NCBI GenBank assembly: GCA_017442185.1 | Contig: JAFSAT010000021.1 | Location: forward strand, 1-64,000 | Origin: Bacteroidaceae bacterium | GTDB lineage: Bacteria > Bacteroidota > Bacteroidia > Bacteroidales > Bacteroidaceae | DNA: 64,000 bases | Reading direction: 5' to 3' | Shown here: one piece after another, positions 24-3,314 of the stretch | Layout: every line of letters starts with the position of its first letter | How positions within the stretch are numbered: the first letter of the stretch is position 1 | The notes under the pieces: generated by a model | What the model was told of the DNA's origin: nothing | The model's input: the letters and a program-made list of their open reading frames with translations, nothing else | Database searches by the model: none | Position numbers and translations under genes: made by a program

Positions 24-635
24 TCAATCACTCATAAGAGATTCTATAAGCGGTACAAGCACCCTCTTCACAATCTCATCATTAAGACGATGCTCGCCTT
101 TGAACCAAAGACAACGCTCCTCGCCGTAATACTCAGCCATGAGAGGACGAAAATGCACCACCGGGTCTTTATCACCGAAAAGCCCCACCACAAGCCTTTT
201 ATCCTCGTCGGTGATACCATCGAACTGCCCACGCTCCATCAGTTTGAAACGCTCAACAACAGCCTTGTCTATACGAAATTCCGTAGCACCATCCTTGCGC
301 TTAGAGGTGTATTTGTTTCGCCCCATCTTCCCAAAAAGAAGCGACCGCGACATCTCAAACGAGGGATTAACAATAATACGCCGTACACCACGCAACTGCT
401 GCACATACATTCCGCCCATGGAAGTTCCCACCACCACAACAGGATTTTCACGCTCAATCGTAGCATGCAACAAGTCCATAGCCTCAAAAGGGTCGACAGG
501 GAGGTCGGGAGCAACAACACGCCACCCCGGAAAATGACGACGTAGAGCCATCACCGTCCCCGAAGAGCCTGAAGAGGCAAAACCGTGAACATACATCATA
601 CACTTCCTCGCTTCGTCATTATAATTGTGATACAT
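24..635 (-). CDS. YqiA-like alpha/beta hydrolase (esterase)
   Basis: A 203-residue single-domain alpha/beta hydrolase of the YqiA/UPF0227 type. A catalytic triad can be read: the nucleophile elbow GTSMGG with Ser72, an acid at Asp155 or Asp157 (FGDKDP) and His182 (GEHRL). The oxyanion region is near YVHGFASSGSSG. Family members hydrolyse short acyl esters; the physiological substrate is unknown. There is no signal peptide, so it is probably cytosolic. The ATG overlaps the 3' end of the trpB2-type gene by 17 bases, so the two are translationally coupled and share the upstream attenuated transcript. A later start at Met13 or Met14 would still keep the whole fold. Confidence 0.85.
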   Translation of the reverse strand: MYHNYNDEARKCMMYVHGFASSGSSGTVMALRRHFPGWRVVAPDLPVDPFEAMDLLHATIERENPVVVVGTSMGGMYVQQLRGVRRIIVNPSFEMSRSLLFGKMGRNKYTSKRKDGATEFRIDKAVVERFKLMERGQFDGITDEDKRLVVGLFGDKDPVVHFRPLMAEYYGEERCLWFKGEHRLNDEIVKRVLVPLIESLMSD

Positions 636-1974
636 TTTGTTCTATACTTTCATTGGTAATGGTATAATTTGTAAGACTCCCCGAAAGATATTGGTCATAA
701 GCCGACATATCCATAAGACCGTGCCCCGAAAGGCAGAATAATATAACCTCGGGACTACCGCTCAACTTACAACGTTCAGCCTCACGTATTGCGGCGGCGA
801 TGGCATGACAGGATTCGGGAGCAGGCACAATACCCTCGGCCTTGGCAAAAAGAAGTCCGGCCTCAAACGAGGAGAGCTGGCTCACATCCACCGCCTCCAT
901 AAGCCCATCCTTGAGAAGCTGCGACACAACAACCCCGGCTCCATGATAGCGCAATCCTCCGGCATGTATGTTGGCAGGTTTGAATTTATGCCCTAAAGTG
1001 AACATTGGCATGAGAGGGGTATATCCGGCTTCATCACCATAGTCGTAACAGAATTTTCCACGAGTTAGCTTGGGACACGATTCAGGCTCGGCTGCCACAA
1101 AGCGTGTCGACTTGCCGTCGAGAATATTGTGTCGCATAAAAGGAAAAGCTATTCCCGAGAAATTCGACCCGCCGCCGAAGCATCCTATCACAACGTCGGG
1201 ATACTCGCCGGCCATCTGCATCTGACGCTCAGCTTCAAGGCCAATGACTGTTTGATGCAGACTCACGTGGCTCATCACCGAGCCTAACGAATATTTGCAA
1301 CCGGGAGTGGTTAGTGCAAGTTCAACAGCCTCGGAGATTGCCGTTCCCAACGAACCTTGATGGTTGGGATACTTTGTAAGTATATCCTTTCCGGCACGTG
1401 TAGACATCGAAGGAGAGGGAGTAACCTGCGCTCCAAAGGCCTGCATCACGCTGCGACGATAGGGCTTCTGCTCGTAGCTTATCTTCACCTGATACACAGC
1501 ACACTCAAGGCCGAACACCTTTGAGGCATAGGAGAGAGCGCACCCCCATTGCCCTGCACCCGTTTCGGTGGTAATATTCGTAGCTCCCTCCTGCTTGCAG
1601 TAATAGGCTTGCGGCAGTGCCGAATTGAGCTTATGAGAACCTACCGGACTTACACTCTCGTTCTTGAAATATATGTGCGCCGGCGTTCCAAGCGCCTCTT
1701 CAAGAGCATAGGCACGCACTAACGGAGTAGAACGATAATAGCGATACATCTCTAACACCGGCAAAGGAATATCTATCCAGCGGTCAGTGGTATTAAGCTC
1801 CTGACATGCAGCCTCACGGGAAATAAGTCTCGCAAGTTCATCTACTGTTATATCCTCGCCTGTATTCGGGCTTTTCATGGGTGCTGCTTTGTTCACCATG
1901 TCGGCCTGTATGTTATACCAGCGGGTGGGTATCTCACCCTCACCAAGGAAATAGCGTTTCTGTTCTTTAGTCAT
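619..1974 (-). CDS. trpB: TrpB2-type tryptophan synthase beta chain (PLP enzyme)
   Basis: A 451-residue PLP-dependent enzyme of the TrpB2 (TrpB-like) subfamily, which condenses indole with serine to give tryptophan. The PLP lysine is Lys115 in VGSHKLNSA. A glycine-rich phosphate-binding loop (CFGGGSNF) and the ETGAGQWG motif are present. Length is normal for TrpB2, which is longer than the TrpA-partnered TrpB1. No trpA or other trp gene is adjacent, which is usual for TrpB2 copies thought to salvage indole. Upstream is a Trp-codon leader peptide and terminator hairpin, so expression is predicted to respond to charged tRNA-Trp. The family call is firm. Whether it is the cell's main synthase cannot be told from this window. 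Confidence 0.93.
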   Translation of the reverse strand: MTKEQKRYFLGEGEIPTRWYNIQADMVNKAAPMKSPNTGEDITVDELARLISREAACQELNTTDRWIDIPLPVLEMYRYYRSTPLVRAYALEEALGTPAHIYFKNESVSPVGSHKLNSALPQAYYCKQEGATNITTETGAGQWGCALSYASKVFGLECAVYQVKISYEQKPYRRSVMQAFGAQVTPSPSMSTRAGKDILTKYPNHQGSLGTAISEAVELALTTPGCKYSLGSVMSHVSLHQTVIGLEAERQMQMAGEYPDVVIGCFGGGSNFSGIAFPFMRHNILDGKSTRFVAAEPESCPKLTRGKFCYDYGDEAGYTPLMPMFTLGHKFKPANIHAGGLRYHGAGVVVSQLLKDGLMEAVDVSQLSSFEAGLLFAKAEGIVPAPESCHAIAAAIREAERCKLSGSPEVILFCLSGHGLMDMSAYDQYLSGSLTNYTITNESIEQNVSQL

Positions 1975-2004
1975 ATTCTACATACTATTATTATTTGACG
2001 AAAA

Positions 2005-2036
2005 AAGAGCCTGCCACAGTAGTGAGGCAAGCTCTT
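2005..2036 (-). terminator. Attenuator terminator hairpin of the trpB leader
   Basis: An 11-bp stem (arms 2026-2036 and 2005-2015, one G-U pair) with a 10-base loop, followed on the minus strand by six U at 2001-2006. It sits about 30 bases before the trpB2 start, inside the leader transcript, so it acts as an intrinsic terminator in front of the gene. Its 5' arm begins AAGAGC. It can instead pair with GCUCUU at 2062-2067, which lies six bases after the leader-peptide stop. This gives mutually exclusive terminator and antiterminator forms. Confidence 0.85.
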
Positions 2037-2073
2037 GTATACGTTTTTCTGCCGAACAAAAAAGAGCAACGTC

Positions 2074-2130
2074 TCACAACATCTGCCTTGAGCTACGCCA
2101 CCACCAACTATTGTTCGACATTGTATTCAT
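2074..2130 (-). CDS. Trp leader peptide with three consecutive Trp codons
   Basis: An 18-residue open reading frame, MNTMSNNSWWWRSSRQML, on the minus strand ending in TGA. It is too short for routine gene finding. Residues 9-11 are three TGG codons in a row (2098-2106), a strong signature of a Trp attenuation leader peptide. It lies between a good promoter (2179-2208) and a terminator hairpin directly before the TrpB2 gene. Its stop codon is six bases from the antiterminator strand. A ribosome finishing the peptide would mask that strand, while one stalled at the Trp codons would leave it free. The peptide itself probably has no other function. Confidence 0.85.
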   Translation of the reverse strand: MNTMSNNSWWWRSSRQML

Positions 2131-2178
2131 AAATCTATATATTTAGAAGCTGTTTGAAATTTACACCTAATTGATTCG

Positions 2179-2208
2179 CAAAAATAGATATTATTTATTA
2201 TAACGCAA
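2179..2208 (-). promoter_or_regulatory. Bacteroidota-type promoter of the trp leader
   Basis: Read on the minus strand: TTG at 2206-2208, a 19-base spacer, then TATTTTTG at 2179-2186, matching TTG-N19-21-TAnnTTTG. The expected transcript start is near 2172, giving a leader of about 200 bases. A single copy of the dispersed AGAAGCTGTTT motif (2145-2160) lies between promoter and leader peptide. Confidence 0.75.
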
Positions 2209-2244
2209 ACAAATCAGGCAAAAATACGGTAAAAATATGGCAGA

Positions 2245-3114: not shown

Positions 3115-3146
3115 CAACGGATAATACAAACTAAACAATTACAATT

Positions 3147-3314
3147 ATGGCTTACGTTATTACAGACAACTGTGTTGCATGCGGTACATGCATCGACGAA
3201 TGCCCTCAGGGCGCAATCTCAGAAGGCGAGAAGTATTCTATTAACCCCGAATTGTGCATCGACTGTGGTTCATGCGCAGCCGTTTGTCCTTCAGAGGCAA
3301 TAATAGAGGGCTGA
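3147..3314 (+). CDS. 2[4Fe-4S] ferredoxin
   Basis: A 55-residue protein carrying two classic CxxCxxCxxxCP clusters: CVACGTCIDECP near residues 9-20 and CIDCGSCAAVCP near 37-48. This is the clostridial-type 2[4Fe-4S] ferredoxin, a low-potential electron carrier for pyruvate:ferredoxin oxidoreductase, Rnf and related enzymes. The start is the ATG 33 bases after a TATCTTCG box. The gene is monocistronic, followed by a hairpin terminator at 3352-3383. It faces away from porT. Length is normal for the family. Confidence 0.95.
   Translation: MAYVITDNCVACGTCIDECPQGAISEGEKYSINPELCIDCGSCAAVCPSEAIIEG

Follow-up and report, generated by a model that had tools for sequence, protein, structure and literature searches.

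In Escherichia coli, trpL attenuates transcription through Trp codons in a leader peptide, the alternative 1:2, 2:3 and 3:4 pairings of the leader RNA, and an intrinsic terminator. In Bacteroidetes, the Bacteroid-trp motif (RF01692) has been described as a probable cis-regulatory RNA (Weinberg et al. 2010, PMC2864571). Two further settings concern the enzyme rather than the RNA. TrpB2_o proteins mostly accompany an operon-based TrpB1 (Merkl 2007, PMC1854888), and the gut Trp auxotroph variant A1 has the last step only, performed by TrpA and TrpB (PMC9026213). For Thermococcus kodakarensis, PMC11085991 cites Hiyama 2014 for roles of both TrpB1 and TrpB2 in making Trp and in salvaging indole, and the same paper reports Bacteroides and others as gut indole makers. 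Trp attenuation as such is already known, also in Bacteroidetes; what is unusual in the locus described here is its placement before a lone TrpB2 gene. In our search of the open-licence literature, we met no description of this element ahead of trpB2 and none of a lone tryptophan-synthase beta gene placed under its control.

The window analyzed is a 64,000-nt stretch from a Bacteroidaceae bacterium (GCA_017442185.1, contig JAFSAT010000021.1, positions 1-64,000). Its minus strand carries, in this order, a promoter, a leader ORF, a terminator, trpB2 and an esterase gene. Bacteroidetes promoters follow the consensus TTTG-19-TAnnTTTG, and the promoter found here agrees with it at 10 of the 10 specified bases: an exact -33 box TTTG (2206..2209) lies 19 nt ahead of the -7 box TATTTTTG (TAnnTTTG, 2179..2186). 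This promoter, which a sigma-70 scan of the window missed, is retained in nearly all related leader loci. The leader ORF (2074..2130; ATG at 2130, TGA at 2076-2074) encodes the 18-aa peptide MNTMSNNSWWWRSSRQML, which aligns to Bacteroidales Trp leaders and contains three consecutive Trp codons, UGG UGG UGG (2098..2106). It is followed by a terminator hairpin (2005..2036) with an 11-bp stem, in which 2036-2026 pair with 2015-2005 (-18.7 kcal/mol), and by a U tract of six U (2001..2006). A generic terminator scan did not output this hairpin, probably owing to its loop-size limit and to scan rules that tolerate no stem interruption. The initial annotation had named these elements on the minus strand together with TrpB2, and we found all of them where it had placed them; the consensus promoter that it had proposed is exact and of the Bacteroidetes type.

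The structural genes behind the terminator were assigned as follows. The trpB2 gene (619..1974, minus strand) encodes a TrpB-like PLP enzyme that exceeds the curated cut-offs (NF009057 / TIGR01415; 675 bits against a cut-off of 366 and 575 against 519) and that retains the catalytic motifs GSHK, with the PLP lysine, GGGSN and SGHG when compared with solved TrpB2 structures. The start of the esterase gene (24..635, minus strand), which encodes a YqiA-like alpha/beta hydrolase (UPF0227) scoring over the Pfam cut-off and under the NCBIfam YqiA cut-off, overlaps the trpB2 stop. As a YqiA-like gene also adjoins trpB2 in the closest relatives, the arrangement suggests that the esterase is probably on the same transcript as trpB2.

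A leader ORF with WWW is expected 0.04 times per shuffled 64-kb window, or about 9e-5 times per 300-nt stretch of one strand, and the sole one in our window is that before trpB2. Thus, this short ORF with consecutive Trp codons, a defining part of a classical ribosome-stalling Trp attenuator, is far beyond chance. A different explanation of the hairpin is that it terminates upstream (porT) transcripts, or acts in translation-level control, and that the short ORF is incidental. The terminator does sit between porT and trpB2, and the closest clade keeps the gene order porT - attenuator - trpB2 - yqiA, with porT as the neighbour upstream. However, the interval from porT to the hairpin contains a separate, perfect promoter and the WWW leader, and the same layout occurs with no porT neighbour in L009, L036, L073 and the trp operons. 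We consider this explanation very improbable. Upstream of porT, the window also contains a small, divergent ferredoxin-like gene (3126-3302, plus strand).

Next to these local features stands the relationship of the element to the leaders of trp operons. At gathering cut-offs, no Rfam family matched the window element. RF01692 was found by lowering the threshold and by searching operon loci: among 4227 Rfam families it was the best for the window element, which it aligns over the full length of the model at 34.7 bits (E=0.017), below its gathering score of 49 bits, and it matches the operon leaders L121-L123 above its cut-off. The same kind of leader lies upstream of the trp operon, with TrpB1 first, in 15 related genomes, and four genomes carry leaders at both the trp operon and TrpB2. 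A covariance model built solely from trp-operon leaders (R2) ranked the window element first in the 64 kb, with a full-length match of 41.8 bits (E=2.6e-9). As only operon leaders entered this model, homology is shown without circularity, and the window copy is a divergent relative of Bacteroid-trp homologous to the Bacteroidales trp-operon leaders. It precedes trpB2, a Trp-synthase paralogue, rather than a trp operon. The initial annotation had called attenuation well known for proteobacterial trp operons; it is not new for Bacteroidetes either, since RF01692 exists and trp operons across the whole order have the element in front of them.

A second model, R1, gave matches at E<=0.01 in 182 of 295 genomes of the order, part of them being partial, terminator-like hits. 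Nearly all the strong R1 matches that we examined precede trpB1, trpE-like or trpD-like genes, the last two assigned by eye. Elsewhere in the genome that carries the window, the search for a second attenuator returned partial, weak, terminator-like matches only. At its gathering cut-off, RF01692 misses clear operon leaders outside Bacteroides (L112, L114-L116, L124). The Rfam model is thus too narrow, and a wider seed would recover leaders across the order. We also observed tandem Trp leader peptides in other Bacteroidales families (L192, L193, L194 and L195, in G288, G274, G276 and G098, respectively), each with its own attenuator-model match and about 140 nt apart; these could possibly be two-step Trp attenuators.

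We then consider how the RNA might switch. From the leader to the terminator, it is more stable than its shuffles (z = -3.5). In the MFE fold, an outer protector helix of 10 bp forms between its 5' strand (2111..2120) and its 3' strand (2050..2059), and a matching outer helix is present in the RF01692 alignment. Within this helix, the predicted ribosome-free fold pairs strand 1 (2089..2102), comprising Trp codons and CTCA, with strand 2 (2102-2095 with 2072-2065, and 2092-2089 with 2076-2073). The antiterminator core of strand 2, GTGAG (2073..2077), holds the leader stop codon; our alignments show that the strand-2 core of RF01692 is likewise a conserved (T)CGTGAG/(T)CGTAAG at this stop. Strand 3 (2022..2036) consists of the terminator 5' arm plus CTCAC (2022-2026). 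With a ribosome stalled at the Trp codons, the predicted fold contains GTGAG:CTCAC together with GCTCTT:AAGAGC (-15.6 kcal/mol) until the terminator 3' arm is made, while a ribosome at the leader stop leaves the terminator as the predicted fold. Thus, by sequence and folding, the antiterminator strand is mutually exclusive with both the protector and the terminator and would be hidden by a terminating ribosome. Even with the leader masked, no fold of the full-length RNA is more stable than the terminator, and therefore the switch must be kinetic.

In the stalled state, the distal antiterminator strand GCTCTT (2062..2067), six bases after the leader stop, pairs with 2031-2036. It is present as the initial annotation had described, which had taken this strand as the antiterminator. 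Our results support that role in the predicted stalled-state fold, but they place the conserved core at GTGAG (2073-2077) and CTCAC (2022-2026), with 2062-2067 being specific to the window. The helix 2067-2062:2036-2031 was found in the window copy alone among the 33 leaders searched, and 2062-2067 as sole antiterminator was rejected.

The comparison of relatives sampled 80 loci from genome contigs and 30 from the family, and a locus was called leader-bearing if it had WW or WWW. Such a leader, followed by a terminator, precedes TrpB2 in 18 different genomes: in the clade of the window itself (L001-L006, L083), in L009/L011/L012/L086, in L036/L059/L071/L073, in L091 and in L049/L072. In ordinary Bacteroides, B. 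fragilis and B. xylanisolvens among them, TrpB2 lacks this leader. The model built from operon leaders barely sees the divergent L003 and L049/L072. The leader is unusual in L049 (2819-2971), L072 (2811-2962) and upstream in L110, with spread Trp codons (FWWQSEWCTVRWRGVA), poor model scores and an antiterminator strand within the coding part.

In an alignment of 27 leaders (A1), compensatory changes on both sides occurred at 12 of the 13 aligned pairs of the terminator stem, 90% of cells were paired, and 0 of 500 shuffles were as good in cells paired and covariation score. An intrinsic terminator conserved by compensation therefore lies between the leader and the structural gene. The six closest leaders all share an unchanged GTGAG, which sits at the leader stop, and an unchanged CTCAC, which belongs to the terminator, although the surrounding stem varies. 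The antiterminator pair became TGAGCA(C):(G)TGCTCA in L009/L011, TCGTGAGAA:TTCTCGCGA in L036 and GCGTGG:CCACGC in L049. In a single common, operon-type register across the 27 leaders, the antiterminator pairing shows little covariation, partly because pairing registers vary from group to group. A swap test was used in place of a common-register covariation count: in 11 representatives, strand 2 pairs better with the terminator of the same leader than with one taken from another leader (permutation p=1e-4). The comparison upstream of TrpB2 in relatives that the initial annotation had proposed thus bears out its reading of classical ribosome-stalling attenuation: the leader is conserved, with Trp codons in the 18 genomes, the terminator covaries, and strand 2 fits its own terminator.

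On the TrpB2 tree, leader presence requires 8 changes, at least 5 of them on starred branches, which amounts to at least five gains or losses of the leader by TrpB2. This history matters for the alternative that the leader is a recent relic: trpB2 would have come to stand behind what remained of a lost trp operon, its leader, which would have stayed in place with no useful regulation. Consistent with a relic, the searched trp genes are missing from the genome, the leader is a homologue of the operon leaders, and the leader of the close relative L003 is degraded, with WW only and no GTGAG. However, six diverged loci retain the Trp codons, GTGAG/CTCAC and the covarying terminator, and a single relic explains neither the at least five gains or losses on starred branches nor the four genomes with leaders on both operon and TrpB2. 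We regard a relic as improbable.

What the attenuator would control depends on which Trp genes remain. The genome that carries the window is a MAG (G000) with a completeness of 94.5%. Its single member of the trpB family is this TrpB2, and trpA, trpC, trpD and trpB1 were not found in this MAG. By gene content, no Trp-forming enzyme other than TrpB2 is recognised in it; here and in the relatives, calls of absent Trp genes rest on MAGs. Both trpA and trpC are missing in 14 of 18 genomes with a leader-bearing TrpB2 and in 9 of 21 chosen genomes with an unled TrpB2, a sample that is not random and whose genomes are not independent by descent. A strict rule equating the leader with pathway loss proved inexact: four leader-bearing genomes keep the pathway, and the nine unled ones lack trpA and trpC.

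A sister lineage (L007/L008/L010) is without trpA, trpC and trpD. Its TrpB2 is leaderless, and its attenuator stands before trpB1, with no other trp gene seen alongside. Because the leader changed 8 times on the TrpB2 tree and precedes a lone trpB1 in this lineage, the association with TrpB2 is repeated, and the leader accompanies whichever beta subunit remains. A lone trpB1 under a Trp attenuator was seen at L140/L190, L145/L191 and L148/L189, in genomes lacking trpA, trpC and trpD; at L190, an indolepyruvate oxidoreductase-like gene pair lies convergent to it.

We hypothesize the following mechanism. When Trp-tRNA is plentiful, the leading ribosome would pass UGG-UGG-UGG to the UGA at 2076-2074 and cover GTGAG; the terminator (2036-2005) would then form, and transcription would end before trpB2. 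When Trp-tRNA is scarce, the ribosome would stall at the Trp codons, open the protector structure (2120-2050) and free strand 2 (2077-2062), which would pair with 2036-2022 before the terminator 3' arm is made, allowing RNA polymerase to read through. Such a switch in vivo is what we infer from these elements. The induced TrpB2 would make Trp from indole supplied by the gut community and from serine or phosphoserine; as the genome is without trpA, trpC, trpD and trpB1, synthesis from indole is its most likely role. The claim in the initial annotation that TrpB2 has a Trp-responsive role is hereby sharpened to indole salvage. In short, we consider it highly probable that a ribosome-stalling, Bacteroidales trp-type transcription attenuator controls the lone TrpB2 and the overlapping esterase gene, indole salvage being the likely function. 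Starvation-controlled indole salvage is the simplest and best reading of an attenuator that is otherwise found before trp operons.

It could also be that attenuation is real and that TrpB2 performs another reaction, such as serine deamination or another beta-replacement, instead of forming Trp from indole. We found no test of a Bacteroidota TrpB2 in the open-licence literature, no indole-producing enzyme is tied to the trpB2 locus, and the genome's tryptophanase-superfamily lyase resembles tyrosine phenol-lyase more than tryptophanase. Against this, TrpB2 is under Trp-codon control, this attenuator precedes a TrpB1 that stands alone in the sister lineage, and the T. kodakarensis TrpB1 and TrpB2 are described in PMC11085991, after Hiyama 2014, as acting in Trp synthesis and indole salvage. 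We judge another reaction to be unlikely. The lyase itself is encoded on contig C47 (L127:1657-3108, minus strand) and is above no equivalog cut-off, passing only the broad tryptophanase subfamily model. Lyases of this type occur in most of the pathway-less genomes with a leader-bearing TrpB2 and are absent from the trp-operon genomes tested. A futile cycle between tryptophanase and TrpB2 was considered and dropped, since models and structures of tyrosine phenol-lyase give the lyase the higher scores. Formation of Trp from indoleacetate via an IOR-type enzyme was also rejected, as no full-length IOR-alpha was detected in G000 and its nearest kin.

Beyond this locus, we lean slightly towards a general model in which, in host-associated Bacteroidales that have lost the Trp pathway, the order-wide trp attenuator repeatedly moved onto a lone beta subunit, TrpB2 here and TrpB1 in the sister lineage, giving starvation-inducible scavenging of indole. 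If this is true, such cells would be conditional Trp prototrophs on community indole, and a regulatory RNA would have outlived its pathway, so that an Rfam-listed Bacteroidetes RNA is tied to what became of the pathway after its loss. The enzyme still used against Trp starvation would be marked by the attenuator, offering a direct clue to the role of the enigmatic TrpB2 of gut Bacteroidales. Likewise, if indole salvage is right, reconstructions that treat these species as plain Trp auxotrophs would be incomplete, and indole would count as a nutrient for them.

Compared with known systems, the locus resembles TrpB2_o and lone TrpB salvage in that trpB2 lies outside any trp operon and that indole salvage by archaeal TrpB2 has been reported; in contrast to TrpB2_o, no other trpB was found here, and the gene is under an attenuator. 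As in variant A1, only the final tryptophan synthase step is retained, but TrpA is also missing here and the enzyme is TrpB2. The element follows the same logic as the E. coli trp attenuator (trpL, RF00513), although RF00513 (Trp_leader) gave no match in the window at the gathering cut-off, nor in 1960-2260 up to E=10, and the leader stop of the window copy, unlike that of trpL, sits inside strand 2. With Bacteroid-trp (RF01692) it has in common the Trp leader peptide, the protector helix and the strand order; the operon leader L114, like the window copy, also fails the narrow RF01692 cut-off. The two differ in that the antiterminator meets the terminator 5' arm and loop in the window copy and the loop and 3' arm in operon copies, and in that the window copy precedes trpB2 and the esterase gene instead of a trp operon.
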